The notes under the pieces were generated by a model. That model saw only the letters and a program-made list of their open reading frames with translations. It ran no database searches and was not told where the DNA came from. A DNA stretch of 64,000 nt from Rhizobium sp. ACO-34A (GTDB taxonomy: Bacteria > Pseudomonadota > Alphaproteobacteria > Rhizobiales > Rhizobiaceae), in NCBI GenBank assembly GCA_002600635.1, contig CP021372.1:124001-188000 (forward strand), given 5' to 3'. Within the stretch, counting starts at the first letter, position 1; every line of letters starts with the position of its first letter. This document shows, in pieces, positions 1 to 42,385 of this stretch. The translations under genes were made by a program, and so were the position numbers.

Positions 1-290
1 AGCCAGCCTTTCAGCGGGCGTAGCGGGGGGATGCAGGTCAGGAACATGAAGGGAATGGTGATGAGGAGATGGATCCACCAGGCCGGCTGGAACTGAACTT
101 CCAGCCAGACGCCAAGGGCCACGCTCGGCACGCAGGCGAAGCAGATGACGAAGAATGCTGGGCCATCGGCAGGATCGGCAAAGGAATAGTCCAGCCCGCA
201 TGCTTCACATTTCTGGTTGAGCGTCAGAAATCCTTTGAACAGATGTCCCTGGCCGCACCGGGGACAACGGCCGCGAATGCCTGTTTGCAT
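1..290 (-). CDS. DUF983 family zinc-ribbon membrane protein (3' end beyond window)
   Basis: About 96 codons are visible, starting from an ATG preceded by a CCTCCCCCCG stretch, and the frame stays open to the window edge. The N-terminus has two CxxC pairs (C9/C12 and C28/C31), a zinc-ribbon-like knuckle. Two hydrophobic segments follow: one rich in F/V/C around residues 45-65 and one around 72-92. This layout (short cysteine knuckle plus two membrane helices) fits the DUF983 family, whose function is not established. The gene lies downstream of and co-directional with the MocR regulator, but has its own upstream region carrying two TGAATGCATTCA palindromes, so it may be controlled separately. 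The C-terminus cannot be judged. Confidence 0.75.
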   Translation of the reverse strand, partial: MQTGIRGRCPRCGQGHLFKGFLTLNQKCEACGLDYSFADPADGPAFFVICFACVPSVALGVWLEVQFQPAWWIHLLITIPFMFLTCIPPLRPLKGW

Positions 291-370
291 CGGGGGGAGG
301 GAGGGCCATTCGGTTCGCACGGCGTCGTTCCTTGTCAAAGCGCTCATTCTGGGGCACTCAATGCCTATAT

Positions 371-406
371 TGAATGCATTCATTTCAAGCTACATGAATG
401 CATTCA
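371..406. promoter_or_regulatory. Pair of TGAATGCATTCA palindromes (putative operator)
   Basis: Two exact copies of the 12-bp perfect palindrome TGAATGCATTCA lie at 371-382 and 395-406, 24 bp centre to centre, so they fall on nearly the same face of the helix. They sit just upstream of the DUF983 start. The half-site TGAATGCA recurs at 2022-2029, 2037-2044 (inverted) and 2133-2140, in the control region between the MocR gene and the Nit1C cluster. The MocR protein is the obvious candidate ligand, but this is inference. Confidence 0.6.
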
Positions 407-473
407 ATGAGTCGACCTGCCAGAACGCCGCAGGCGTTCCGGCATGCTCGACACGACGGTGAAGTGAAGTACT

Positions 474-1877
474 TCAGAAAAAGGAGCCGGCCATCTCGGG
501 CGAATTGGCCAGTGCATGGCCCATGAACTCCAGCGCCGCCTTGAGCTGCGGGCGCTGAATGGGGCCTCCGAGGCAGACCCGGACCGCTTCCGGTGCCGGG
601 CCATCCACCGTGAACGCATCGCTTGCCACGACGCCGATCCCGGAGGAGCGCATGTGACTGCCGAAGGTGGAGCGCGTCCAGCCTCCGGTCAATGGCAACC
701 ATATGTTGAAGCTGATGGGATCGCCGCGATAGCTGCCCTTCGGCAGAATATCGGCCACGAGCTTCTGCCGCGCCGCCGTCTCGCTGCGGATGAAGCGCAG
801 GATGCTGTCTGCTGTACCGTCTTCGATCCAGCGGGTGGCAAGCGCCACCGAAAGCGGCGAGGCCATGACGTTGTTGGCCCGCATGGCGCTGACGAATGGC
901 CATGCAGCCTTGGTGTCCGGAGCCACCACATAGGCCAGCCGCAGGCCGGCCCCGATGCATTTGGCAAGGCCGCCGATATGCCAGGTCAGGTCCGGGGCCA
1001 TGGCCGCGAGCGGCGGCGGACTATGGAGCGGAATGAAGCCATAGGCGTCGTCTTCGACGATCGGCACATGATATTTGCGCGCGACCGCACAGATCTCCTC
1101 CCGGCGCTTTTCCGGAATCGTGAATGTCATCGGGTTCTGCAGCGTCGGATTGAGATAAAGCGCCTTCGGCTTCTTCATCTCGCAGGCCTCGGCAAAGGCA
1201 GCCGGGATGATACCTTCCTCATCCATCGGCAGGCCGGCAAGGTTGAGCCGCAGCAGGGCGGCAATCGAGCGCATGCCGGGATAGGTTATGTTTTCCGAGA
1301 GCACCGTCTCTCCGGGTTTTGCCAGCATTCCGAAAAGGGCAAGCAGCGTCGGGTGGGCGCCGGGTGTCACGAAGATGCGCTCCTGGGAGGGCACGAGGCC
1401 ACGTCGGCTCAACCATGCGGCGGCGGCCTCCTTGTCCATGCCCGCGCCCCCGAAACCCTGGTAACGCAGAAGCGGAACAAGGTTCGTCGCCACGGATGAG
1501 AGCCCCTCCCGCATGCGCGCGATCAGGTCGGGGTCATCCGGCTCCGGCGGCATGTTCATGGAAAAGTCGACGACGGAGGTCCGGCGCGGATCCGGCATGG
1601 CGTCCGAGATGAAACCACGGCGCTCCTTGTCGGCGCCACCAGTCACAAAGGTTCCGCGACCGACATGGGTGCTGACGAGGCCGCGCTTCTGTGCCTCGAG
1701 ATAGCCCCGCGCCACGGTGGTGAAATCGATTTCGAGCCTTCTGGCGAGTTCCCGCTGCGGCGGCAACCGGTCGCCAACAACCAGATGACCGCTCCTCAAG
1801 TCCATTTCGATGACATCGGCTATCGCCATATAGCGGGGACCGTTGCTGCGGCTGAGGTCGGGGGTCCAGGTCTTCAT
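474..1877 (-). CDS. MocR-type (GntR/aminotransferase) transcriptional regulator
   Basis: The protein (467 aa from the chosen start) has an N-terminal GntR winged helix (about residues 18-80, with the typical LPPQRELARRLEI...GRGTFV pattern), a linker, and a fold-type I aminotransferase domain. Within the latter, VEDDAYGF and the lysine of GGLAKCIGAGLR sit at the PLP-binding positions. MocR regulators bind PLP and often control vitamin B6 or amino-compound genes. An upstream in-frame extension of 27 codons exists, but conserved sequence begins near MKTW, so that ATG was chosen; a second ATG lies four codons upstream. It is divergent from the Nit1C operon across a control region rich in TGAATGCA repeats, so it may regulate that operon, itself or the DUF983 gene. 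Confidence 0.85.
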   Translation of the reverse strand: MKTWTPDLSRSNGPRYMAIADVIEMDLRSGHLVVGDRLPPQRELARRLEIDFTTVARGYLEAQKRGLVSTHVGRGTFVTGGADKERRGFISDAMPDPRRTSVVDFSMNMPPEPDDPDLIARMREGLSSVATNLVPLLRYQGFGGAGMDKEAAAAWLSRRGLVPSQERIFVTPGAHPTLLALFGMLAKPGETVLSENITYPGMRSIAALLRLNLAGLPMDEEGIIPAAFAEACEMKKPKALYLNPTLQNPMTFTIPEKRREEICAVARKYHVPIVEDDAYGFIPLHSPPPLAAMAPDLTWHIGGLAKCIGAGLRLAYVVAPDTKAAWPFVSAMRANNVMASPLSVALATRWIEDGTADSILRFIRSETAARQKLVADILPKGSYRGDPISFNIWLPLTGGWTRSTFGSHMRSSGIGVVASDAFTVDGPAPEAVRVCLGGPIQRPQLKAALEFMGHALANSPEMAGSFF

Positions 1878-2249
1878 CTCGTACGGCATCCACTGGTCGA
1901 CAATGATTGACTGTATATTGTTGCCTGACGTGCATGTCACCTGCGAAAGCACGGACAATGCGACGCAGGTTTCGCCACCAGGAGACTCGTGTGTACTGCA
2001 CGCAACATCGAAAAATCACAATGAATGCATATTGATTGCATTCATTTTTGATATTGATGATTTCGTTTTCAGCAGCGGTTTGCCGCTATTTTTGACTCTG
2101 CTCAAGTTTGTTCTGAATATTGACTGTATTTTTGAATGCAAAATATCACGGTTTGATTGCAAATTAGGCAAATACAATCCTGGCACACTGCTTGCAATTG
2201 AAGGGCTGTACCCCACTCCGGGGCCTGACTTCAAACACAGGAGCCATTC
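1878..2249. promoter_or_regulatory. Divergent control region between MocR gene and Nit1C operon
   Basis: This AT-rich stretch holds no credible gene. It contains the inverted repeat TGAATGCA (2022-2029) / TGCATTCA (2037-2044), a third half-site at 2133-2140, a perfect AGCGG-N4-CCGCT inverted repeat at 2074-2087, and a sigma-54 promoter close to the Nit1C start (separate entry). The MocR gene reads leftward from here. Confidence 0.6.
2181..2196 (+). promoter_or_regulatory. Sigma-54 (RpoN) -24/-12 promoter of the Nit1C operon
   Basis: The sequence TGGCACACTGCTTGCA matches the RpoN consensus TGGCAC-N5-TTGCA at every key base. The invariant GG (2182-2183) and GC (2194-2195) are exactly ten bases apart. 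Transcription would start near 2207, about 43 bp upstream of the first ATG. Sigma-54 promoters need an enhancer-binding activator such as NtrC, which would fit nitrogen-starvation control. I could not recognise a convincing NtrC box upstream. Confidence 0.8.
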
Positions 2250-2732
2250 ATGCCCGCAGTTACCGCCCCCGCCCACGCCGATGGGGACTTCTTCGTCGAC
2301 TACGAGGAAAAGGTCTTCGAGGACGTCCAGGCCAAGGAAGGCGAAAAAGCCCTCATCACCTTTCACACAGTCGCCTTCGAAGGATCGATCGGCCTCGTCA
2401 ACCTGCTGCAGGCGAAGCGCCTGAAGCGGAAGGGCTTCGAAACCTCCGTCCTCCTTTACGGCCCCGGCGTCACGCTTGGCGTGCAGCGCGGCTTTCCCAA
2501 GCTCGGAGCCGAAGCCTTTCCCGGCCATCTGAACTTCAACAACCAGCTCAAAGGTTTCATGGAAGAGGGCGGCAAGGTCTATGCCTGCCGGTTCGCGCTT
2601 CAGGCGCTTTACGGGCATGGCGAACCCTCGCTTATCCCCGGCATCCGGCCGATCAATCCGCTCGACGTGCTGGACCTGATCCTTATCCACCGCCGCGATG
2701 GAGCCTTCATCCTCGACACCTGGACGCTCTGA
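2250..2732 (+). CDS. MSMEG_0572/Sll0783 family nitrogen-starvation response protein
   Basis: First gene of the cluster, 160 aa, with AGGAG ahead of the ATG. It is a soluble protein without signal or membrane segment and resembles the Sll0783/MSMEG_0572 family, named for induction during nitrogen starvation in cyanobacteria; its biochemical role is unknown. A DsrE-like small alpha/beta fold is possible from the segments [10 protein letters not shown] and SVLLYGPGV. Its position directly before the nitrilase, and the whole downstream gene order, match Nit1C clusters. It is followed by a roughly 70-base gap and then the nitrilase. Confidence 0.85.
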
Positions 2733-2803
2733 CGAGCGCCTGCGCCGCCGGAAGGCGGAGTTCATCGGCTCCGCCTCCGCAATCCCAACCGAAGGATTTG
2801 ATG

Positions 2804-3862
2804 ATGGAAAGCAACACGACCACGCGCAAATCTACGGTCAGGGCGGCTGCCGCCCAGATCGCGCCGGACCTTGCCTCCCGCGAGAAAACGCTGGAACGCG
2901 TCCTGGAAACCATCAGGGAAGCGGCATCCAAGGGAGCAGAACTCATCGTCTTTCCGGAGACCTTCGTTCCCTGGTATCCCTATTTCTCCTTCGTGCTGCC
3001 GCCGGTGCTTTCCGGTCGCGAGCATGTTCGCCTCTATGAAGAGGCCGTGACGGTACCGAGCGCCGCGACCGAAGCTGTGGCAAGCGCCGCCCGCGAACAC
3101 GGCATCGTGGTGGCGCTCGGCGTCAACGAGCGCGATCACGGTTCCCTCTATAACACACAGCTTCTCTTCGACGCCGACGGCAAGCTCATCCTGAAGCGTC
3201 GCAAGATCACGCCGACCTTCCATGAACGGATGATCTGGGGGCAGGGCGACGCTTCGGGATTGACCGTCGCCGAAAGCGGCGTCGGCCGCATCGGAGCGCT
3301 GGCCTGCTGGGAACATTACAATCCGCTCGCCCGCTACGCCCTGATGGCGCAGCACGAGGAAATCCATGTCGCCCAGTTTCCCGGCTCGATGGTGGGGCCG
3401 ATCTTCGCCGAGCAGATGGAGGTGACCATCCGCCACCACGCGCTTGAAAGCGGCTGCTTCGTCGTCAATGCTACCGGATGGCTCACCGACGAGCAGATCG
3501 TTTCGATCACCCCGGACCAGAGCCTGCAGAAGGCGCTGCGCGGGGGATGCATGACGGCAATCGTCTCCCCCGAAGGCAAGCATCTTGCTCCCCCGATTAC
3601 CGAGGGCGAGGGCATCCTGATCGCCGATCTCGACATGAGCCTCATCGTCAAGCGCAAGCGGATGATGGACTCGGTCGGCCATTATGCCCGCCCCGAGCTG
3701 CTGCATCTGGTCATCGACGGCCGCGCCGCGGCGCCGATGGTCGCCTCCCAGAACTCATTCGAAACCCCGACTGCAAGGAGCAGCAACGATGGAAACCGCG
3801 ACGCGTCTTTCGACCGAGATCCTGATCAACGAGTTGCAGTCCTTCGGAGCCAGGCTGGTTGA
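2804..3862 (+). CDS. Nit1C nitrilase (Sll0784/NitC type)
   Basis: The 352-aa carbon-nitrogen hydrolase carries the complete nitrilase triad: E52 in FPETFVPW, K134 in KRRKITPT and C168 in [11 protein letters not shown], plus E141 in the HERMIWG loop. Nitrilases hydrolyse nitriles to acid and ammonia. The member of this cluster type has been linked genetically to cyanide assimilation in pseudomonads. Two adjacent ATGs are possible; GAAGGA is better spaced for the second. The C-terminal tail overlaps the next gene by 74 nt, which is unusually long and suggests translational coupling, or a stop lost relative to homologues. Confidence 0.92.
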
Positions 3863-4907
3863 TCCGAAAGTGGGCCAGGAAAGCCGCCGCGGCGGCGCAG
3901 GCCCTTCCGATCACAAGCCCATGACCATCGACGGCATGACGGTCATGGTGCCGGTTCATACCGCTCCGGCATTCGAGAGCCCTTATCTCGTGGAAAAACC
4001 CGACGAGACCGGCAAGAGCCGGATCAGCCGCGATGGTCAGGTGCTTGGCGAGGTTTCCTTTCCGCTACGGCCGCGCTTTTACGAGCGCTCGACGGCGGAT
4101 GGCATTCCCTATTCGCAGATCGCGGTGCTGCATGGCCGCGACGTGCTGGCGACAACGGTGCTGCAGACCTGCATCCGCTATCAGAGCCGGACAAAGACTT
4201 GTCAGTTCTGTGCCATCGGCCAGTCGCTGGCAGCCGGGCGCACGATTGCCCACAAGACGCCGGAACAGCTTGCGGAGGTGGCGAAGGCCGCAGTCGAACT
4301 CGATGGCGTCAGGCACATGGTCATGACCACCGGTACGCCGAAGGGACCGGACAGGGGCGCCGCTATCCTCGTAGACAGCGCACGGGCCATCAAGGCAGCC
4401 GTCGAGCTGCCGATCCAGGCGCAATGCGAACCGCCCGAAGACGACGGCTGGTTTCAGGTGATGAAGGATGCGGGCGTGGACGCGCTCGGCATGCATCTCG
4501 AAGTCGTCACGCCGGAAGTCCGCGCCCGCATCATGCCCGGCAAGGCGCAGGTCTCCATCGAGAAATACATGTCCTCGTTCAAGGCAGCCGTCGAAGTCTT
4601 CGGCCGCGGACAGGTTTCCACCTACATTCTCGCCGGCCTTGGCGATACGCGCGAGGCGATCCTCGACATCTGCAAGAAACTGGTGGCGATCGGCGTCTAT
4701 CCTTTCGTCGTGCCCTTCGTGCCGATTTCCGGAACGCCGCTTGAAAGCCATGCCGGTCCGACGCCCGACTTCATGCATTCGATCCTCGGCCCATTGTCGA
4801 AAATGCTGGTCGACAGCGGTCTCAAGGCCGTCGACATCAAGGCCGGCTGCGGCAAATGCGGCGCCTGCTCGGCCCTTTCCACCTATGAAAGGATGCTGAC
4901 GAAATGA
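3789..4907 (+). CDS. MSMEG_0568 family radical SAM protein
   Basis: The 372-aa protein belongs to the Nit1C-associated radical SAM family. Its likely [4Fe-4S]/SAM cysteines are C128, C138 and C141 (C-x9-C-x2-C in [19 protein letters not shown]), not the canonical CxxxCxxC spacing. A second group near the C-terminus, C354/C357/C360 (GCGKCGAC), could hold an auxiliary cluster. AAGGAG lies nine bases before the ATG, inside the nitrilase gene. The reaction is unknown; conserved linkage with nitrilase, GNAT and AIR-synthase-like genes suggests a role in forming or modifying the substrate or a cofactor. Confidence 0.9.
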
Positions 4908-5446
4908 TTTTCGAGCCCTTTGCACCTTATCAGGCCGGCGAATTCCAGGTGAAGTTCGCGACATCCGCATGGGAGCGACAGGAAGCGCATGCGCTTCGCC
5001 GCGCCGTCTTCTGCGAGGAACAGAGGATCTTCCAGGGGGACGACCGCGATGCCATCGACGATCATGCGATCCCCATTGTCGCGCTGTCGATGATGGGGGT
5101 GACCGCCGACCGGCTGGTCGGCACCGTCCGCATCCACCAGGAAACTCCGGGCCTGTGGTGGGGCTCCAGGCTCGCGGTGCATGAGGATTTCCGCAAGATC
5201 GGCGCGCTTGGCGCAACGCTGATCAGGCTTGCCGTCTCCTCCGCCAATGCGATGGGCTGCCACACGTTTCTCGCCAACGTGCAGCCGCAGAACGGGTTGC
5301 TCTTTCGCCGGCTGCACTGGGACGTGATCGACGAATTCGAGATCTACGGCAAGCCGCATCTGCGCATGAAGGCAGACCTCGCCTGGTATCCGCCCTGCGC
5401 GACCCCCGAAGCGGGTTTCGTCGCCCTCCCTAGAAAGGCGGCATGA
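4904..5446 (+). CDS. MSMEG_0567/Sll0786 family GNAT N-acetyltransferase
   Basis: This 180-aa protein has a GNAT-like core: strand VGTVRIHQE followed by a Gly-poor acetyl-CoA loop region around LAVHEDFRKIGALGATLIRLAV, then SANAMGCHTFLANVQPQN. The family is restricted mostly to Nit1C clusters. It overlaps the radical SAM gene by an ATGA junction and the next gene by another, so the three are translationally coupled. The acceptor substrate is unknown. Confidence 0.88.
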   Translation: MIFEPFAPYQAGEFQVKFATSAWERQEAHALRRAVFCEEQRIFQGDDRDAIDDHAIPIVALSMMGVTADRLVGTVRIHQETPGLWWGSRLAVHEDFRKIGALGATLIRLAVSSANAMGCHTFLANVQPQNGLLFRRLHWDVIDEFEIYGKPHLRMKADLAWYPPCATPEAGFVALPRKAA

Positions 5447-6423
5447 CCATGACCGCCATCGACATCCCTGCTCTCGCCACCAAGCTCTCTCTATCCGGCG
5501 GCATTGCCGCCAAGGCGGATATCGGCGCGGTTGCGGCCAGTCTCGGCCTTGCCGGTCAGCCGGTCGCCGTCGGCGACGATTGCGCCGCACTTCCCGATGG
5601 CGAAGGCTATCTTCTGTTCGCCATCGAAGGCTTCATCAACGAATTCGTCGCCGCCGATCCGTGGTTTGCCGGCTGGTGCGGCGTGATGGTCAACATCTCC
5701 GACGTCGCCGCCATGGGCGGGCGACCGATTGCCGTGGTCGATGCCGTCTGGGCAAATGGCGAAGCGGGTGCTGCACCGGTTCTGGAGGGCATGCGTGCCG
5801 CCGCAAGTGCCTTCGGCATACCGATCGTCGGCGGCCATACCAATATCCGCACCGACCGCGGCCAATTGTCCGCCGCCATCCTCGGACGGGCGTCGAGCCT
5901 GCTGACGAGTTTCGACGCGAAACCGGGCGACGTGCTGATCGCGGCGATCGACCACCGCGGACGCTACCGGGAACCCTTCAACAACTGGGAAGCGGCGACA
6001 GACGCACCGCCCGCCCGCCTTTGTGGTGACCTTGAAATCCTGCCCGAGATCGCAGAGGCCGGACTGGCATTCGCCGCCAAGGACATCAGCCAGGGCGGTA
6101 TTCCCGGCACGGCCATCATGCTGGCGGAATGTTCCGGGGTCGGCATCGAAATCGACGTTTCCGCCATTCCCCTGCCGGCGGGCGTCGCCCTCGACCGCTG
6201 GCTCGCCACCTTTCCGAGCTTCGGTTACCTCGTGTCCGTTCCGCTGGACAATGTCGCGGCCGTCCTTCGGAAGTTTTCCGCGCGCGGCATCGTGGCCGCC
6301 GCTATCGGCTCCGTCACCGCCGGCAGTGAGGTCGCCATCAACGCCTATGGCGTCCGCGCGGTTATCCGCGACCATGCCCTGACGCCGCTGCTTCAGCTCG
6401 CCCGACGGGAGGAGGCCGCATGA
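5443..6423 (+). CDS. Sll0787 family AIR synthase-like (PurM-fold) protein
   Basis: The 326-aa protein has the PurM/ThiL/SelD architecture: an N-terminal ATP-binding AIRS domain with VGDDCAALPDGEGY (compare GDDAAV in ThiL/HypE) and MVNISDVAAMGGRP, and a C-terminal AIRS_C half with AKDISQGGIPGTAIMLAE. Such proteins use ATP to activate an amide, carboxylate or phosphate-accepting group. This branch occurs in Nit1C operons and has no assigned reaction. It starts at an ATGA overlap (another ATG lies two codons downstream) and ends in an ATGA overlap with the glycosyltransferase-like gene. Confidence 0.88.
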   Translation: MTMTAIDIPALATKLSLSGGIAAKADIGAVAASLGLAGQPVAVGDDCAALPDGEGYLLFAIEGFINEFVAADPWFAGWCGVMVNISDVAAMGGRPIAVVDAVWANGEAGAAPVLEGMRAAASAFGIPIVGGHTNIRTDRGQLSAAILGRASSLLTSFDAKPGDVLIAAIDHRGRYREPFNNWEAATDAPPARLCGDLEILPEIAEAGLAFAAKDISQGGIPGTAIMLAECSGVGIEIDVSAIPLPAGVALDRWLATFPSFGYLVSVPLDNVAAVLRKFSARGIVAAAIGSVTAGSEVAINAYGVRAVIRDHALTPLLQLARREEAA

Positions 6424-7574
6424 GCCGGTTGCTGCGTATCGCCATGCTCACGCATTCCACCAATCCCCGCGGCGGAGTGGTGCATGCCATGCAGCTTTCC
6501 GAAGCCTTGACCGCCCTTGGCCATGAGGTGGCACTGCATGCCCCTGATGCGAAGGGTACGGGGTTCTTCCGTAACCCCGCCTGCGGCACGGTGTGCATCC
6601 CCGCCGATCCGGCACCGGCCGGCATGACGGCGATGGTGGAACAGCGGATTGCCGATTACCTCAGGCATTTCGCGAACCCGGCGGCGCGAGATTTCGACAT
6701 CTTCCACGCTCATGACGGCATTTCCGGCAATGCGCTCGCGACGTTGAGGCAACGCGGCCTGATCCCGGCCTTCGTCCGGACCGTGCATCACATCGACCAG
6801 TTCGCCGATCCCCGCCTCATTGAATTGCAGGATCGGTCGATCGACATGGCGGACGTCTTCTTCACCGTCAGCACGACATGGCGCCAAGCGCTGGTGGAGC
6901 GCGGGCACGTGGCCACAGTCGTCGGCAACGGTGTGGATGTCGATCGCTTCGCCCCCGTCTGGAACGGTGAGCAAACCGCGCTGCGCGACCGCCTCGAACT
7001 GCCTCCCGGTCCGACTTTCCTCAGCATCGGCGGCGTGGAGGCGCGCAAGAACACGATCGCAATCCTCGATGCCTTCCGGCAATTGCGCGTCGTTCATCCC
7101 GATGCCCGGCTGGTGATCGCCGGCGGCGCATCGCTACTTGACCATCATGGTTATCAGGAGGAGTTCCGCTCCGAGCTTGCCATGCTGCGCGAACATGCCA
7201 CCGCAGTGCATCTGATCGGCCCGGTTGCCGACCGGGACATGCCCAATCTCTACCGCCTCGCCGATGCTCTGGTTTTTCCCTCGCTGAAGGAGGGGTTCGG
7301 GCTGGTGGTGCTGGAGGCCATGGCCAGCGGCGTTCCCGCCATCGTCTCCTCCATCGCGCCCTTCACCGAGTATCTCTCCACCGACGATGCGATCTGGTGC
7401 GATCCCCATCATCCCGCATCCATTGCCGAAGCGATGGCCCTTTCCCTCGTGCCGCAGATCCGTGACCGGGTCATTCCGCGTGGTCTCGATGTTGCCACCC
7501 GCTTCTCGTGGCGGCGCGTCGGCGAAGCCCATCTTGCCGCTTACGCATTGTTGAAGGAGGCTATCCATGCCTGA
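6420..7574 (+). CDS. MSMEG_0565 family glycosyltransferase
   Basis: A 384-aa GT-B enzyme of the GT4 type. The N-terminus MLTHSTNPRGGVVHAMQLSEAL is the acceptor-side Rossmann half. The C-terminal half has FLSIGGVEARKN and the retaining-GT4 signature FPSLKEGFGLVVLEAMASG, with the conserved E-x7-E arrangement for nucleotide-sugar binding. It is a regular member of Nit1C clusters, which suggests that a small glycosylated product or carrier is made, but donor and acceptor are not known. It overlaps the following small gene by 8 nt. Confidence 0.9.
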   Translation: MSRLLRIAMLTHSTNPRGGVVHAMQLSEALTALGHEVALHAPDAKGTGFFRNPACGTVCIPADPAPAGMTAMVEQRIADYLRHFANPAARDFDIFHAHDGISGNALATLRQRGLIPAFVRTVHHIDQFADPRLIELQDRSIDMADVFFTVSTTWRQALVERGHVATVVGNGVDVDRFAPVWNGEQTALRDRLELPPGPTFLSIGGVEARKNTIAILDAFRQLRVVHPDARLVIAGGASLLDHHGYQEEFRSELAMLREHATAVHLIGPVADRDMPNLYRLADALVFPSLKEGFGLVVLEAMASGVPAIVSSIAPFTEYLSTDDAIWCDPHHPASIAEAMALSLVPQIRDRVIPRGLDVATRFSWRRVGEAHLAAYALLKEAIHA

Positions 7575-7854
7575 AATGCACTTCGTCATCGCCTGGCCGG
7601 ATGGCCGGGAGGAGACCTGTTATTCGCCCTCCCTCGTCATCAGGGATTTCCTCGAGGAGGGGCGGGCCTATCCGGTCCGTGATTTTCTCGAACGCAGCCG
7701 CAAGGCCCTGACGATTGCGAGCGACCGGGTGGAGGCGAAATACGGCCATCCCTGTTCGCTTGCCCGCGGCCAGCTCGACCGCATCGAGGCCACCGGTACG
7801 CCCTTCCTCGACGATGCCGAAGCCCTCGTTCGCTGCCAAAGTTTTATCCTCTGA
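7567..7854 (+). CDS. MSMEG_0570 family nitrogen-starvation response protein
   Basis: A 95-aa acidic protein beginning MPEMHFVIAWPDG, of the family annotated after the mycobacterial neighbour MSMEG_0570. No catalytic motif, signal or membrane span is visible. The start overlaps the glycosyltransferase end, with AAGGAGG just upstream giving a strong ribosome site. Its invariant placement between the glycosyltransferase and the flavoprotein in these clusters suggests a carrier, chaperone or subunit role; this is inference only. Confidence 0.85.
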   Translation: MPEMHFVIAWPDGREETCYSPSLVIRDFLEEGRAYPVRDFLERSRKALTIASDRVEAKYGHPCSLARGQLDRIEATGTPFLDDAEALVRCQSFIL

Positions 7855-7863
7855 AAGGAACCC

Positions 7864-9141
7864 ATGTCCATGACCTCGTCCCTCAAGCCGCACTACAGCA
7901 CCGTCATCATCGGTGGCGGGCAGGCGGGCCTTTCCGCCAGCCACTATCTCAAGAAACGCGGCATTGATCACATCGTCTTCGAAAAGAAGACCGTGGCGCA
8001 CAAATGGAAAGACGAACGCTGGGATGCCTTCTGCCTTGTGACGCCGAACTGGCAATGCCAGCTTCCCGACCACCCCTACGATGGCGACGACCCGCATGGT
8101 TTCATGGTCAAGGACGAGATCCTTGCCTATGTCGACCGCTTCGTGAAGAAGGTGAATGCGCCGGTGCTGGAAGGAACGACGGTCACCTCGGTCGAGAAGA
8201 CTGGCGAGATCTTCAGGGTCGAGACTTCGGCTGGCACCGTGACGGCCGACAGCGTGGTCCTCGCCACCAGCCTCTACAGCCGTCCTGCAATTCCACGCGC
8301 TGCCGAGCGCCTGCCGGAAAGCATCCTGCAGCTGCACACTGCCGACTACCGCAACCCCGGCCAGCTGCCGGAGGGCGCGGTCATCGTCGTCGGCTCCGGT
8401 CAGTCCGGCTGCCAGATAGCAGAAGACCTGCACCTTGCAGGGCGCAAGGTGCATATGGTGACCGGAAATGCACCGCGCTGCGCCCGCTTCTACCGCGGCC
8501 GGGATGTTGTCGACTGGCTTGCCGATGTCGGCCAGTACGACATCACCGTCGCCCATGACGGCATGTCGAAGAAGAAGCACGACACCAATCATTATCTCAC
8601 CGGCCGGGACGGCGGACGCGACATCGACCTCAGAAAGTTTGCGCTGGAAGGCATGTCACTCTACGGCCGCATGCAGGGCGTCGCCGGCGGCAGGATGCTG
8701 TTCGAACCGAACCTCAAGGCCAATCTCGACGGTGCTGATCAAGTCTATAACGGCATCAATGCCCTGATCGACCGTCATATCGCGGTAAACGGCATCGATG
8801 CGCCGCCGGCAAGCGTCTACATGCCACTCTGGGAACCGGAAAGCGAACCCGTCCAACTGGATCTCGAGGCCGAAGGCGTCACCTCCGTCATCTGGGCGAC
8901 CGGTTTTCATCCCGACTGGTCCTATGTCGGCTTGCCGATCTTCGACGGCACCGGCTATCCCATCCAGCGGCGCGGCGTGGCCGGCATCGACGGCGTCTAT
9001 GTGCTTGGCCTGCCCTGGCTCTGGACCTGGGGTTCCGGCCGGTTCCTCGCCGTCGGCAAGGATGCCGAGCATGTCGTAAGTCATCTGGCCGGATATCTTG
9101 ACGCCCGGGAACCGGTCGGCAAGCAGGCTGCAAGTGCGTGA
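7864..9141 (+). CDS. MSMEG_0569 family FAD-dependent oxidoreductase
   Basis: The 425-aa flavoprotein has an N-terminal FAD-binding motif VIIGGGQAGLSAS (residues about 14-26) and a second Rossmann motif VIVVGSGQSGCQIAEDL for NAD(P)H, in the style of class B flavin monooxygenases. VIWATGFHPDW near the C-terminus is the ATG motif of such enzymes. AAAGGAA precedes the start. In Nit1C clusters this is the single oxygenase or oxidase, so it may carry out the oxidative step of the pathway. Its stop codon is followed almost at once by the LnmK-like gene, which appears to extend the operon. Confidence 0.9.
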   Translation: MSMTSSLKPHYSTVIIGGGQAGLSASHYLKKRGIDHIVFEKKTVAHKWKDERWDAFCLVTPNWQCQLPDHPYDGDDPHGFMVKDEILAYVDRFVKKVNAPVLEGTTVTSVEKTGEIFRVETSAGTVTADSVVLATSLYSRPAIPRAAERLPESILQLHTADYRNPGQLPEGAVIVVGSGQSGCQIAEDLHLAGRKVHMVTGNAPRCARFYRGRDVVDWLADVGQYDITVAHDGMSKKKHDTNHYLTGRDGGRDIDLRKFALEGMSLYGRMQGVAGGRMLFEPNLKANLDGADQVYNGINALIDRHIAVNGIDAPPASVYMPLWEPESEPVQLDLEAEGVTSVIWATGFHPDWSYVGLPIFDGTGYPIQRRGVAGIDGVYVLGLPWLWTWGSGRFLAVGKDAEHVVSHLAGYLDAREPVGKQAASA

Positions 9142-9210
9142 CCATGAAGATCGCCGCTCTCGATCCACGGGCAGCAACACCCTCCGTGCGGACTGTCGGA
9201 AACCTGGCTG

Positions 9211-9921
9211 ATGAAGGAGCTCGGCCACCGTCACTGGCTGATGCTTGCGCTCCGACTTGGCATGGACAACGCCGATTTTCGGACGTCGGATGGGCGCGAA
9301 GCATATGCCTCGATCTGCGCCAGCCTGCTGGAGGAGCGAGGTGAAGGCCTGCAGGTGGTGAAGGCCAACGACGTCCTCGAGATCCGCTCTTCCTTCTTCT
9401 TCCTTTCGAAGAACAGGCATTGCAGCCATCATCGAATGACAATCGATGGCTATGGGGTTTGCGAGGTCGAGCTTGTTTCCACCTTCGTCGCGCGCCGAAA
9501 GGAGAATGACAACCACTCACTGGCACGCGTTGATCAGGGTTGTGATATTGGCACCTTTGCGACGAGCCGGCTTGCCGATACGGCCTCGGTTATCCGGCGC
9601 CAGGCATTGGAAGCATCGCTCGACGGTGAGGTGCAAGCCACTCGCTTTCCCGAGTTCTCGTTTACACCGGATCCGCAACATGACTTCAACGGCGCGGGCC
9701 TTCTGTATTTCGTCAATTTCCAGGCGATTTTTTCACGCGCCGTGACCATGCTGACCGCCAACGCTCAGCTGCCCAAACATCGGGAGGTCTTCTTTCTCGG
9801 CAATCTCCGTCCCGGCGAGGATGTGAAAGTGACGCTGGTGAAGGGTGAAGGCGAAGGCGTACTTTCCTGCCGAATGACTCGCCCCGACGGCAAGATTATC
9901 GCGCTTTTCAAGGCAGTGTAA
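9211..9921 (+). CDS. LnmK-like / Pnap_2097 family biosynthetic protein, start possibly frameshifted
   Basis: The 236-aa product resembles the Pnap_2097 group of proteins related to LnmK, a double-hot-dog acyltransferase/decarboxylase of leinamycin biosynthesis. Recognisable parts are KELGHRHW near the start and the C-terminal hot-dog half (FNGAGLLYFVNFQAIF). The conserved sequence appears to begin upstream of the first in-frame ATG: the frame reads ...GLSETWL before it and stays open back to 9148 without ATG, GTG or TTG. A good ATG at 9144 lies in a different frame and runs into this region, so a one-base shift near 9180-9190 would join them. Either a non-standard start, a frameshift mutation or a sequencing error is involved. 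Confidence 0.6.
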   Translation: MKELGHRHWLMLALRLGMDNADFRTSDGREAYASICASLLEERGEGLQVVKANDVLEIRSSFFFLSKNRHCSHHRMTIDGYGVCEVELVSTFVARRKENDNHSLARVDQGCDIGTFATSRLADTASVIRRQALEASLDGEVQATRFPEFSFTPDPQHDFNGAGLLYFVNFQAIFSRAVTMLTANAQLPKHREVFFLGNLRPGEDVKVTLVKGEGEGVLSCRMTRPDGKIIALFKAV

Positions 9922-10022: not shown

Positions 10023-10568
10023 TCATAGCCAGAAGATGACGGTTGCTGCGAGCGCGATAGCGGAGAAGAAGGCCATCGGGCACTTGTCATGGCGTGTAGC
10101 GACACGACGCCAGTCCTTGAGACGCCCGAACATGATCTCGATCCGGTTGCGCCGTTTGTAGCGGCGCTTGTTGTATTTGGTGGTCTTGTTCCGAGATTTC
10201 CGACCCGGAATGCAGGGAGTGATCCCCTTCGCCTGTAAAGCGTCACGAAAACAGTCGGCATCATAACCACGGTTGGCCGGCAGCCATTTGGCCTTGGGAA
10301 GCTCATCAAGCAGGGCGGCAGCGCCGGTGTAATCGCTGACCTGACCTGCGGTTATAGAGAAACTGATCGGGCGACCATTCGCATTCATTACGGCATGAAG
10401 CCTGGTGTTCATGCCACCTTTCGTGCGGCCGATCAGGCGGCCCGCGCCCCCTTCTTTACCCGCAGGCTGGAAGCCCTGCGGTGAGCCTTGAGATAGGTCG
10501 CGTCGATCATGATGATCTTTCGCTCCGGAGCCTCAGGCACAGCCAGGCCTTCCAGCCTGCGGGTAAAG
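10023..10568 (-). pseudogene. IS5-family transposase remnant (two frames)
   Basis: One frame encodes LFTRRLEGL...MIDATYLKAHR.ASSLRVKKG and ends at a TGA. The second frame, entered by a -1 shift at AAGAAGGGGGC, continues as GRLIGRTKGGMNTRLHAV and runs 129 aa to the C-terminus (from the ATG at 10412). That second part contains the DDE-domain segments NRGYDADCF and RNRIEIMFGRLKDWRRVATRHDK. IS427-group elements normally make their transposase by programmed frameshifting at a similar place, so the shift itself need not be a defect; the lost N-terminus is. A perfect 21-bp inverted repeat lies inside (separate entry). Confidence 0.7.
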
Positions 10569-39378: not shown

Positions 39379-39595
39379 ATGGCGCTCAGAAGCATTTCTT
39401 GACCCGGCGATTTCACGCGAGGCCATTGCAAACGGTCCGTGTCCAATTCGTGGTACTACTTTTTTACCGGAATGCGGCATCTTGTCAGCCGGCTCTGGCT
39501 GGCGTACTCGAAAGCCGTCGGACATTGGGCCGATTAACGATACCATTTGGCGTCGCTGCGTTTCGGCGCCACAACCTCAAGACGTTGGGATTGCG

Positions 39596-42385
39596 ATGAA
39601 CCTTTACTTGGATTACCTGGCTGAGATCAAAAGCAGAGAAACTCAAGGGCTCGCTCCCAAGCCGATCGACGACGGCGCTCTTCTCGGCGAGATCATCACG
39701 CTCATTCAGGATGCCGGCAGTGAGCATCGTGCGGATGCCCTGAAATTCTTCATCTACAATACGCTGCCGGGCACGACCAGCGCCGCCGGCGTCAAGGCAG
39801 CGTTCCTGAAGAAGATCATTCTCGGCGAAGTGATCGTTCCCGAAATCACTCCCGATTTTGCTCTCGAACTGCTTTCGCACATGAAGGGTGGTCCCTCGGT
39901 CGAGGTGCTGCTCGACATCGCGCTTGGCGGCAACGAAGCAATTGCCGGCAAGGCAGGCGACGTGCTGAAGACCCAGGTCTTCCTCTACGATGCCGACATG
40001 TTCCGCCTGCGCGATGCCTTCAAGGCGGGCAATGCTGTCGCCAGGGATGTGCTTGAAAGCTACGCCAAGGCCGAGTTCTTCACCAAGCTCCCGGATGTCG
40101 AGGACGAGATCAAGGTCGTGACCTTCATCGCTGCCGAAGGCGATATCTCGACCGACCTTCTGTCGCCGGGCAACCAGGCGCATTCTCGCTCCGACCGCCA
40201 GCTTCACGGCCAGTGTATGATCACGCCGGAAGCGCAGCAGGAAATCGTGGCGCTGCAGCAGAAGCATCCTGACAAGCGCGTGATGATGATCGCCGAGAAG
40301 GGCACGATGGGCGTCGGTTCGTCGCGCATGTCCGGCGTGAACAACGTCGCGCTGTGGACCGGCAAGCAGGCCAGCCCCTACGTGCCTTTCGTCAATTTCG
40401 CTCCTGTCGTTGCGGGCACCAACGGCATTTCGCCGATCTTCGCGACTACCGTCGACGTGACCGGCGGCATCGGCATCAACCTGAAGAACTGGGTCAAGAA
40501 GACCGGTGAAGATGGCAAACCGATCCTCAACAACGATGGCAATCCGATTCTCGAGCAGAAATTTTCGGTCGAGACCGGCACCGTTCTGAAAATCGACGTC
40601 AAGAACAAGAAGCTTCGCGACGAGAGCGGCAATGAACTGGTCGACGTCGCCGCTGCCTTCACACCCCAGAAGATGGAGTTCATGAAGGCCGGTAGTTCCT
40701 ACGCTATCGTCTTCGGCAAGAAGCTTCAGACCTTTGCAGCGCAGACCCTTGGCATCGAGCCGACGCCGGTTTTCGCTCCGAACAAGGAAATCTCCATCGA
40801 AGGCCAGGGCCTGACCGCGGTCGAGAAGATCTTCAACCGCAACGCGGTCGGTGTGACCCCGGGCAAGATCCTGCATGCCGGCTCCGACGTTCGCGTCAAG
40901 GTGAACATCGTCGGCTCGCAGGACACGACCGGCCTGATGACCGCGCAGGAGCTTGAGGCGATGGCGGCAACCGTCATCTCGCCGCTGGTCGATGGCGCCT
41001 ATCAGTCCGGTTGCCATACGGCGTCCGTATGGGACAAGAAGGCACAGGCGAACATTCCGAAGCTCATGTCCTTCATGAACAACTTCGGTGTCATCACCGC
41101 CCGCGATCCGAAGGGCGTCTATCACTCGATGACGGACGTCATTCACAAGGTGCTGAACGACATCACCGTCGATGACTGGGACATCATCATCGGTGGCGAC
41201 AGCCATACGCGTATGTCCAAGGGCGTGGCCTTCGGCGCCGATAGCGGCACTGTAGCGCTGGCGCTGGCAACGGGCGAGGCCACCATGCCGATCCCGCAGT
41301 CGGTCAAGGTAACCTTCAAGGGCACGATGCAGCCCTACATGGATTTTCGCGACGTGGTGCATGCGACCCAGGCACAGATGCTCAAGCAGCATGGCGACAA
41401 CGTCTTCCAGGGCCGCATCATCGAAGTCCACATCGGCACGCTGCTCGCCGACCAGGCCTTCACCTTCACTGACTGGACGGCCGAGATGAAGGCCAAGGCG
41501 TCGATCTGCATTTCGGAAGACGAGACGCTGATCGAGTCGCTGGAAATCGCCAAGTCGCGCATGCAGATCATGATCGACAAGGGCATGGACAACGCGGCCG
41601 GCACCATCAAGGGCCTGATCGCCAAGGCTGATCGTCGTATCGCCGAGATCCGTTCGGGCGAAAAGCCGGCTCTCAAGCCTGACGATAATGCCAAGTACTT
41701 CGCCGAAGTCGTTGTTGACCTCGACCTGATCAACGAGCCGATGATCGCTGACCCGGACGTCAACAACAACGATGTGTCCCGGCGTTACACTCACGATACG
41801 ATCCGCCCGGTTTCGTATTACGGTGGCACCAAGAAGGTGGACCTCGGCTTCGTCGGTTCGTGCATGGTTCACAAGGGCGACATCAAGATCGTTGCCCAGA
41901 TGCTGAAGAACCTCGAAAAGGAACAGGGCAAGGTCGAGTTCAAGGCGCCGCTCGTCGTCGCCGCGCCGACCTACAACATCATCGACGAGTTGAAGGCCGA
42001 AGGGGACTGGGAAATCCTGCAGAAGTATTCGGGCTTCGAATTCGATGACGTGAAGCCCAAGACTTCGAACCGTACCGAATACGAGAACATCCTCTATCTC
42101 GAACGCCCCGGCTGCAACCTTTGCATGGGCAACCAGGAAAAGGCGGAAAAGGGCGACACCGTTCTGGCCACCTCGACCCGTCTGTTCCAGGGCCGTGTGG
42201 TTGAGGACACCGCTGAAAAGAAGGGTGAATCGCTGCTGGCGTCCACACCGCTGGTGGTGCTGTCGGCGATCCTTGGCCGTACGCCGAGCATCGAGGAGTA
42301 TCGCATGGCGGTCGAAGGCATCAACCTGACAAAGTTCGCGCCGCCGAAGACGAAGCCGATCGACTCCCTGTCTGTCCACTACTGA
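39596..42385 (+). CDS. acnB: Bifunctional aconitate hydratase 2 / 2-methylisocitrate dehydratase
   Basis: The 929-aa enzyme matches AcnB throughout: N-terminal HEAT-like domain from MNLYLDYLAEIKSRE, swivel domain (SPGNQAHSRSDRQLHGQCMI), then the catalytic domains with the [4Fe-4S] cysteines in GFVGSCMVHKGD and PGCNLCMGNQ. It interconverts citrate and isocitrate. The ATG before NLYLDYL was chosen because homologues begin there; the open frame extends 38 codons upstream without conserved sequence, and the ribosome site is weak. A strong terminator follows. Most alphaproteobacteria rely on AcnA, so an AcnB here is notable and may be accessory. Confidence 0.95.
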   Translation: MNLYLDYLAEIKSRETQGLAPKPIDDGALLGEIITLIQDAGSEHRADALKFFIYNTLPGTTSAAGVKAAFLKKIILGEVIVPEITPDFALELLSHMKGGPSVEVLLDIALGGNEAIAGKAGDVLKTQVFLYDADMFRLRDAFKAGNAVARDVLESYAKAEFFTKLPDVEDEIKVVTFIAAEGDISTDLLSPGNQAHSRSDRQLHGQCMITPEAQQEIVALQQKHPDKRVMMIAEKGTMGVGSSRMSGVNNVALWTGKQASPYVPFVNFAPVVAGTNGISPIFATTVDVTGGIGINLKNWVKKTGEDGKPILNNDGNPILEQKFSVETGTVLKIDVKNKKLRDESGNELVDVAAAFTPQKMEFMKAGSSYAIVFGKKLQTFAAQTLGIEPTPVFAPNKEISIEGQGLTAVEKIFNRNAVGVTPGKILHAGSDVRVKVNIVGSQDTTGLMTAQELEAMAATVISPLVDGAYQSGCHTASVWDKKAQANIPKLMSFMNNFGVITARDPKGVYHSMTDVIHKVLNDITVDDWDIIIGGDSHTRMSKGVAFGADSGTVALALATGEATMPIPQSVKVTFKGTMQPYMDFRDVVHATQAQMLKQHGDNVFQGRIIEVHIGTLLADQAFTFTDWTAEMKAKASICISEDETLIESLEIAKSRMQIMIDKGMDNAAGTIKGLIAKADRRIAEIRSGEKPALKPDDNAKYFAEVVVDLDLINEPMIADPDVNNNDVSRRYTHDTIRPVSYYGGTKKVDLGFVGSCMVHKGDIKIVAQMLKNLEKEQGKVEFKAPLVVAAPTYNIIDELKAEGDWEILQKYSGFEFDDVKPKTSNRTEYENILYLERPGCNLCMGNQEKAEKGDTVLATSTRLFQGRVVEDTAEKKGESLLASTPLVVLSAILGRTPSIEEYRMAVEGINLTKFAPPKTKPIDSLSVHY

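Follow-up and report, generated by a model that had tools for sequence, protein, structure and literature searches.

The window analyzed here, a 64,000-nucleotide stretch of the genome of Rhizobium sp. ACO-34A (G000:C2:124001-188000; source genome 6.28 Mb in five contigs), carries near its left end eight genes, i.e., nitB, nitC, nitD, nitE, nitF, a glycosyltransferase gene, nitG, and nitH, which, judged by family assignment and gene order, are a genuine Nit1C operon, a cluster of an already known kind. A divergent gene (mocR) for a MocR-type regulator lies upstream of nitB, the region between these two genes holds a predicted sigma-54 (σ54) promoter as well as ATTGAHTG repeats, and nitH is followed by a broken ninth gene of LnmK type (Table 1). 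What the present analysis may add to the known cluster is the architecture of MocR regulator, repeats, and σ54 promoter, a possible second target of the regulator, and a ninth gene, broken in this copy. The organism is, on sequence comparison, a Ciceribacter-like member of the Rhizobiaceae; the closest named loci are those of Ciceribacter sichuanensis S101 (L054) and Rhizobium daejeonense L61 (L011), with a NitD identity of 98% each.

Families were called at curated NCBIfam cut-offs. Loci entered the count when their sequence reached over 2.6 kb upstream and over 9 kb downstream, which was true of 110 of the 122 with NitB; the remaining 12 were dropped beforehand. These 110 clusters comprise a first set of 68 and a wider set of 42. 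The sample is skewed, as 80 loci were taken as the best among 192 relatives of the window NitD and the remainder came from genome samples.

Table 1. Features of the Nit1C locus, in window coordinates; family scores are given as bits/cut-off where a cut-off is listed.
Feature	Coordinates	Strand	Evidence and remarks
DUF983 gene, cut by left window edge	3..347	-	PF06170 97.1/22.6
Two inverted ATTGAATGCA sites between DUF983 gene and mocR	369..408 (369-378, 399-408)	.	Just before DUF983 gene start
mocR, GntR and aminotransferase-fold domains, divergent from nitB	474..1889	-	PF00392, PF00155; NF052286 EhuR 467.3
Probable MocR operator region (putative)	1906..2128	.	ATTGAHTGYA at 1906, 2031, 2119; perfect 23-bp dyad 2022-2044
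Predicted σ54 promoter, -24/-12 elements, TGGCACACTGCTTGC	2181..2195	+	Exact consensus; conserved in relatives
nitB, MSMEG_0572/Sll0783 family	2250..2732	+	TIGR04044 285.2/109.85; DsrE-like fold predicted
nitC, Nit6803-family nitrilase	2801..3862	+	TIGR04048 577.2/502.6
nitD, radical SAM protein	3789..4907	+	TIGR04043 607.5/303.7
nitE, GNAT acyltransferase	4904..5446	+	TIGR04045 236.4/68.45
nitF, PurM/AIR-synthase-like protein	5443..6423	+	TIGR04049 448.5/321.3
Glycosyltransferase, GT4-type, optional member	6420..7574	+	TIGR04047 504.5/259.85; 84/110 clusters
nitG, MSMEG_0570 family	7567..7854	+	TIGR04042 123.3/79.85
nitH, flavoprotein	7864..9141	+	TIGR04046 655.7/498.35
Ninth gene, LnmK-like acyltransferase/decarboxylase, broken	9144..9921	+	TIGR04099 197.6/125, TIGR04098 174.3/100; comparison with L054

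Gene content and order of the Nit1C cluster

A first-pass annotation of the window, made from its sequence, had assigned the eight genes to named families in a given order and called them intact; the family profile search that it proposed placed all eight proteins over the curated cut-offs in that order, and all eight reading frames are open. Its description of the genes as tightly overlapping holds for five of the seven junctions (overlaps of 74, 4, 4, 4, and 8 nt, from nitC-nitD onward) but not for nitB and nitC, which are separated by 68 nt, or for nitH, which is preceded by a 9-nt gap. Likewise, the cluster is complete with regard to the eight genes but not with regard to the ninth, which is usual in close relatives and broken here. 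The annotation had overlooked this ninth gene as well as mocR and the repeats.

Nit1C was defined by Podar 2005 as seven genes (PMC1199592), and all seven lie together and in order in the window, including a Nit6803-type nitrilase (subfamily 1 in the naming of Podar 2005) that scores over the TIGR04048 cut-off. The seven defining genes, their order, and the nitrilase family are what the window cluster has in common with the Nit1C cluster as originally described (PMC1199592) and with nitBCDEFGH of Pseudomonas (PMC11049912). It represents the glycosyltransferase form, for which Podar 2005 described an optional insertion between ORF5 and ORF6 in Burkholderia and Rubrivivax (PMC1199592). By contrast with the Pseudomonas clusters, the window cluster has a MocR-type regulator in place of NitA, ATTGAHTG repeats, and the LnmK-like ninth gene (broken in the window).

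NitB, NitC, NitD, and NitH co-occur in all 110 clusters and NitE, NitF, and NitG in 109. A reduced cluster, in which nitH directly follows nitD, is found in Hansschlegelia plantiphila (L083, 8387-13516). The glycosyltransferase gene is missing from 26 of the 110 clusters and therefore does not belong to the core of the pathway; it also does not figure in the gene list of the nit1C cluster of cyanide-assimilating Pseudomonas strains (PMC11049912). This bears on the proposal in the first-pass annotation that the glycosyltransferase, together with the PurM-fold and radical S-adenosylmethionine (SAM) proteins, argues for synthesis of a small molecule. The glycosyltransferase appears to be a weak argument to this end, but the genes for the radical SAM (110/110), GNAT (109/110), and PurM-fold (109/110) proteins are near-universal, which makes a synthetic step plausible without it. 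The chemistry of most cluster proteins is, as the annotation also stated, not known.

A predicted σ54 promoter conserved upstream of nitB

The -24 box of the predicted σ54 promoter lies at position 2181, with nitB starting at 2250. TGGCAC-N5-TTGC has a single exact match in the 64 kb, at 2181-2195; allowing one mismatch raises the number of sites to 8, as compared to 4.85 expected by shuffling, and a count of 8 is attained in 12 of 100 shuffles. The site is thus weak evidence when considered from the window alone. Conservation in relatives makes it strong. In 90 intergenic regions between nitB and a divergent mocR, the best match to the consensus is perfect in 65; a further 20 differ from it at one position, 2 at two, 2 at three, and 1 at four. 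The 85 regions with at most one mismatch compare with 2.6 predicted by dinucleotide shuffling (0.1 exact and 2.5 with one mismatch). The site also keeps a nearly constant distance from nitB across relatives, and rpoN is present in the source genome. The σ54 promoter that the first-pass annotation had placed ahead of the cluster thus stands as a well supported prediction, at a locus type for which Podar 2005 reported no identifiable conserved transcription-factor sites upstream (PMC1199592).

With regard to the activator that such a promoter would use, no σ54 activator gene was found near the locus in 99 of 101 sequences scanned, and no activator motif was found within the 64-kb window; the genome contains ten PF00158 matches, none of them inside the window. 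The activator is thus probably encoded elsewhere and acts in trans. MocR proteins lack an AAA+ domain and are not expected to open a σ54 promoter themselves. Four loci (L087, L088, L132, and L138) keep MocR, have no good σ54 site, and carry the variant ATTGTATG upstream of nitB in one to three copies, an arrangement that may represent a second type of promoter.

A MocR-type regulator and its probable operator

The protein encoded by mocR has the MocR architecture, with a GntR domain (PF00392, 49 bits) followed by a class I aminotransferase-fold domain (PF00155, 54.9 bits), both over the cut-off. At least 98% of 108 sequences share Lys309, the lysine expected to bind pyridoxal 5'-phosphate (PLP; position assigned in this analysis). 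The two domains and a score of 467.3 bits against NF052286 liken this protein to EnuR/EhuR, a regulator of ectoine use (PMC8739950); this score is just below the cut-off of 480 for EhuR, and the setting differs, as the window gene lies beside nitB at a σ54 promoter, whereas EnuR operators overlap a σ70 promoter (PMC8739950).

In Pseudomonas Nit1C clusters, the divergent gene encodes NitA, a σ54-dependent regulator (PMC11049912) that is not part of the definition by Podar; in the window, the MocR-type gene fills this slot. The divergent regulator is MocR in 98 of the 110 clusters and of NitA type in 4 (L120, L146, L147, and L152), with both present in none and neither in 8. L120 was checked in Pfam, and the other three NitA-type proteins were found by their 55-56% identity to it. 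Among the 110 clusters, NitA and MocR thus appear to exclude each other, with the published NitA type in the minority. MocR proteins of the wider set are 38-84% identical to the window MocR; in one locus (L158), MocR starts approximately 3.4 kb from nitB. The eight loci with neither regulator are all from Rhizobium and all keep the ATTGAHTG repeats, and in each of the six genomes searched a MocR protein 84-85% identical to that of the window is encoded outside the fetched stretch.

The repeats occur, in their longer form ATTGAHTGYA, at five sites in the 64 kb (0.47 expected), all of which flank mocR, and one of which sits inside the perfect dyad at 2022-2044. Over the 90 MocR-type intergenic regions, ATTGA[ATC]TG words average 3.06 per region as compared to 0.12 in shuffles. 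They lie mostly on one strand, mainly 41-70 bp and approximately 150 bp before the -24 box and also nearer the MocR start, with 12 bp as the most frequent spacing; direct repeats are frequent among MocR operators (PMC5320631). No such repeats were found in the four NitA-type clusters. Taken by their position and distribution, the ATTGAHTG sites are the probable MocR operator.

One alternative, which we consider quite improbable, is that the σ54 match and the repeats are conserved for other reasons, with MocR acting as a direct activator at an ordinary promoter or with another protein binding the repeats. The lack of a nearby activator gene in nearly all sequences scanned would fit this reading, as would the four loci that keep MocR and ATTGTATG without a good σ54 site; against it stand a -24/-12 match that occurs far above shuffled expectation at a kept distance from nitB and the absence of the repeats where NitA replaces MocR. 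A σ54 promoter with a MocR operator is the reading that we retain.

Repeats are also present past the MocR stop in 15 of 68 loci, all 15 of which have a DUF983 match. By coordinates, a DUF983 gene is adjacent to and in line with mocR in 17 loci, and repeats are found in 15 of these 17 as compared to 0 of the 51 others. The DUF983 gene is thus a possible second target of the regulator. DUF983 proteins have COX4-like signatures and have been shown in cytochrome oxidase (COX) operons (PMC4013037), and this tie to the target of cyanide is suggestive, no more.

As for how the regulator might act, EnuR is a repressor that is released by amines reacting with PLP (PMC8739950), and a MocR protein apparently acts as repressor of cio/nit4, a cyanide cluster in a Pseudomonas, a point for which the authors cite unpublished data (PMC8567248); in the same species, a mutant in another GntR-type regulator was slower on cyanide. 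By analogy with EnuR and the cio/nit4 protein, the window MocR would most simply be a gate that is released by an amine. In the open-access literature covered (mostly listings, and a word search of PMC5320631), we found no report of MocR or of an LnmK-like gene as part of Nit1C.

The ninth gene

Relative to L054, the ninth gene of the window lacks 65 bp near its start, which puts the start codon at 9144 out of frame with the rest; the open remainder (9211-9921) begins at an internal ATG, is not a full-length frame, and lacks approximately 45 residues, including a stretch that is present in 28 other aligned sequences. It is on this remaining part that the LnmK-family cut-offs are passed. An LnmK-like gene is found downstream of nitH in 66 of the 110 clusters (60/68 in the first set and 6/42 in the wider set). 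Its likeness to LnmK, a bifunctional methylmalonyl-CoA decarboxylase/acyltransferase of leinamycin synthesis, includes, in addition to the family scores, a profile match to the solved structures 4hzo and 6x7l (E 2.1e-9) and a tyrosine that is invariant in 29 of 29 LnmK-like sequences and aligns with LnmK Tyr62, which we take to be an active-site residue. It differs in that no carrier-protein gene was recognized beside it and in that the window copy is frame-broken.

Over unsaturated NitD pairs, the LnmK-like gene is the least constrained of the ten, with a median dN/dS of 0.36 (a rough estimate, as the median dS of this gene is 1.4) as compared to 0.14-0.30 for the nine others and a median identity of 45% as compared to 60-84%. 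L011 and L054 share 96-100% identity in the nine other proteins and 51% in the LnmK-like one, and such a jump occurs in 2 of 40 close pairs, in which the LnmK-like gene appears to have been exchanged between near-identical clusters. A variable end step of this kind fits tailoring, and relaxed constraint fits as well. DNA identity to the window of approximately 93% (window 1-9193) ends abruptly in L011 where the ninth gene begins; in L054, similarity runs through.

Further LnmK-like genes were seen in other arrangements. The genome of one locus (L135, G141:C14:79000-98500) has such a gene and no Nit1C radical SAM match above the cut-off, which indicates that the family has other settings too. 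At G033:C3:297474-300453, the match is in two pieces approximately 2.2 kb apart, suggesting an insertion; in L036 the frame is cut short, and in L046 the gene lies approximately 1.5 kb beyond nitH.

The break in the ninth gene, together with a transposase reading frame that lies approximately 100 bp past it, could be taken as signs of a cluster in decay that has fallen out of use in this strain. We regard this as very improbable, as the eight core reading frames, mocR, the repeats, and the promoter are intact, and as 8 of the 68 complete first-set clusters have no LnmK-like gene at all, i.e., this gene is dispensable. The transposase frame (10023-10412, minus strand, PF01609) is short and of DDE type, and no second full copy of this stretch was found in the genome. 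Farther along, at 39482-42385, the window contains an aconitate hydratase 2-type gene (PF06434, PF00330, and PF11791); a stretch 91% identical to it lies approximately 3 kb past the Nit1C cluster in L054, indicating that the surroundings have been rearranged.

Predicted properties of individual proteins

NitB, whose counterpart (ORF1) Podar 2005 placed in the YchN-like superfamily (PMC1199592), shows the highest conservation of all members (median identity 84%), and its Cys113 is kept in 123 of 123 sequences. The structural model (mean pLDDT 72.3) matches DsrE/YchN-type folds, and the NitB profile aligns with four DsrE-like proteins at a probability of 94%, with Cys113 on their conserved cysteine. 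NitB nonetheless stands apart from the DsrE/YchN/TusD-type proteins, in that it scores 15.3 bits against Pfam DsrE, under the cut-off of 22.7, and its profile gave no significant alignment with five DsrE proteins of relatives. We thus predict a DsrE-like fold with one invariant cysteine and do not file NitB as a DsrE protein. For NitC, the closest solved chain is 3wuy_A (E 1e-150), and Glu53, Lys135, and Cys169, presumably the catalytic triad, are conserved in at least 98% of 112 sequences.

NitD has the motif CX9CX2C in 124 of 124 sequences and a C-terminal CX2CX2C in 99%, the latter being consistent with a second cluster; its weak family matches are lipoyl synthases. NitF belongs to the PurM/ThiL/HypE superfamily, with ThiL, PurL, HypE, and PurM as solved relatives. 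In NCBIfam, both the GNAT family and the PurM-like C-terminal family are named after MSMEG_0567, a naming that hints at a fused protein and at joint action of NitE and NitF. The NitG model has a mean pLDDT of 97.0, with Cys63 kept in all 114 aligned sequences; searches of the PDB with NitG gave no convincing match.

Proposed role of the cluster

The tie of Nit1C to cyanide assimilation, to which the first-pass annotation referred, is found in the literature: a 2-hydroxynitrile arises non-enzymatically and is hydrolyzed by NitC (PMC11049912, PMC9716671), and NitC is required for cyanide assimilation in other strains (PMC11049912). For the window cluster, the most likely role, as read from its genes and their conservation, is regulated release of nitrogen from cyanide-derived nitriles combined with a small-molecule step. 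We hold, with moderate confidence, a model in which the Nit1C operon is transcribed from the σ54 promoter behind a MocR gate and provides nitrogen from such nitriles, with an auxiliary small-molecule step. Nitrogen limitation would lead to σ54 activation through the activator encoded elsewhere, and exposure to cyanide or nitriles would give rise to an amine metabolite whose reaction with the PLP of MocR would free the operon. Cyanide and a carbonyl or imine would form a hydroxy- or aminonitrile, which NitC would hydrolyze to ammonia and the acid. In the least certain step, NitB, NitD, NitE, NitF, NitG, and NitH would produce or sustain a small molecule that serves as acceptor or cofactor in cyanide capture, with the glycosyltransferase and the LnmK-like enzyme as optional tailoring, the latter probably lost in this strain.

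Several observations weigh against parts of this model. A nearby activator gene is lacking in nearly all sequences scanned, and NtrC-type sites are not clearly enriched (with up to three mismatches, 14 of 90 regions as compared to 11.2 expected; with up to four, 72 as compared to 54.5). ATTGA[ATC]TG is absent from 5 of the 90 whole intergenic regions and, within 400 bp upstream of nitB, from 11 of 39 MocR-type clusters compared, and the loci are related, so that counts and intergenic regions do not represent independent trials. With regard to function, the H. plantiphila cluster (L083) lacks nitE, nitF, nitG, and the glycosyltransferase gene, and mutation of sll0783 (nitB) in Synechocystis impairs accumulation of polyhydroxybutyrate and shifts the redox balance, effects not obviously related to cyanide (PMC3901256).

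It is also conceivable, and in our view unlikely, that Nit1C is chiefly biosynthetic, with NitC hydrolyzing a nitrile that arises as an intermediate within its own pathway and with growth on cyanide as a by-product of this nitrilase. The seven genes are kept together across phyla even though a nitrilase alone could free ammonia (PMC1199592), and the optional glycosyltransferase and LnmK-like genes, the latter with its apparent exchange, resemble tailoring genes; the conserved block, however, contains no transporter, carrier protein, or assembly-line gene. A further reading, decidedly unlikely, is a sulfur-handling pathway in which NitB would be a persulfide carrier of DsrE type, NitD with two clusters would insert or rearrange sulfur or carbon, NitE and NitF would activate and acylate, NitH would oxidize, and the glycosyltransferase and LnmK-like enzyme would vary the end groups; the product would capture cyanide for NitC, and one MocR regulon would couple to this a DUF983 protein such as those in cytochrome oxidase operons.

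Under the model of regulated nitrogen release, if MocR works like EnuR, the amine that it senses would be expected to arise within the pathway, as an intermediate or as a product. Descriptions of Nit1C go back to 2005, yet within the open-access literature covered no chemistry has been worked out beyond the nitrilase; the regulator, its probable operator, the predicted σ54 promoter, and the possible second target may offer a testable entry into Nit1C.

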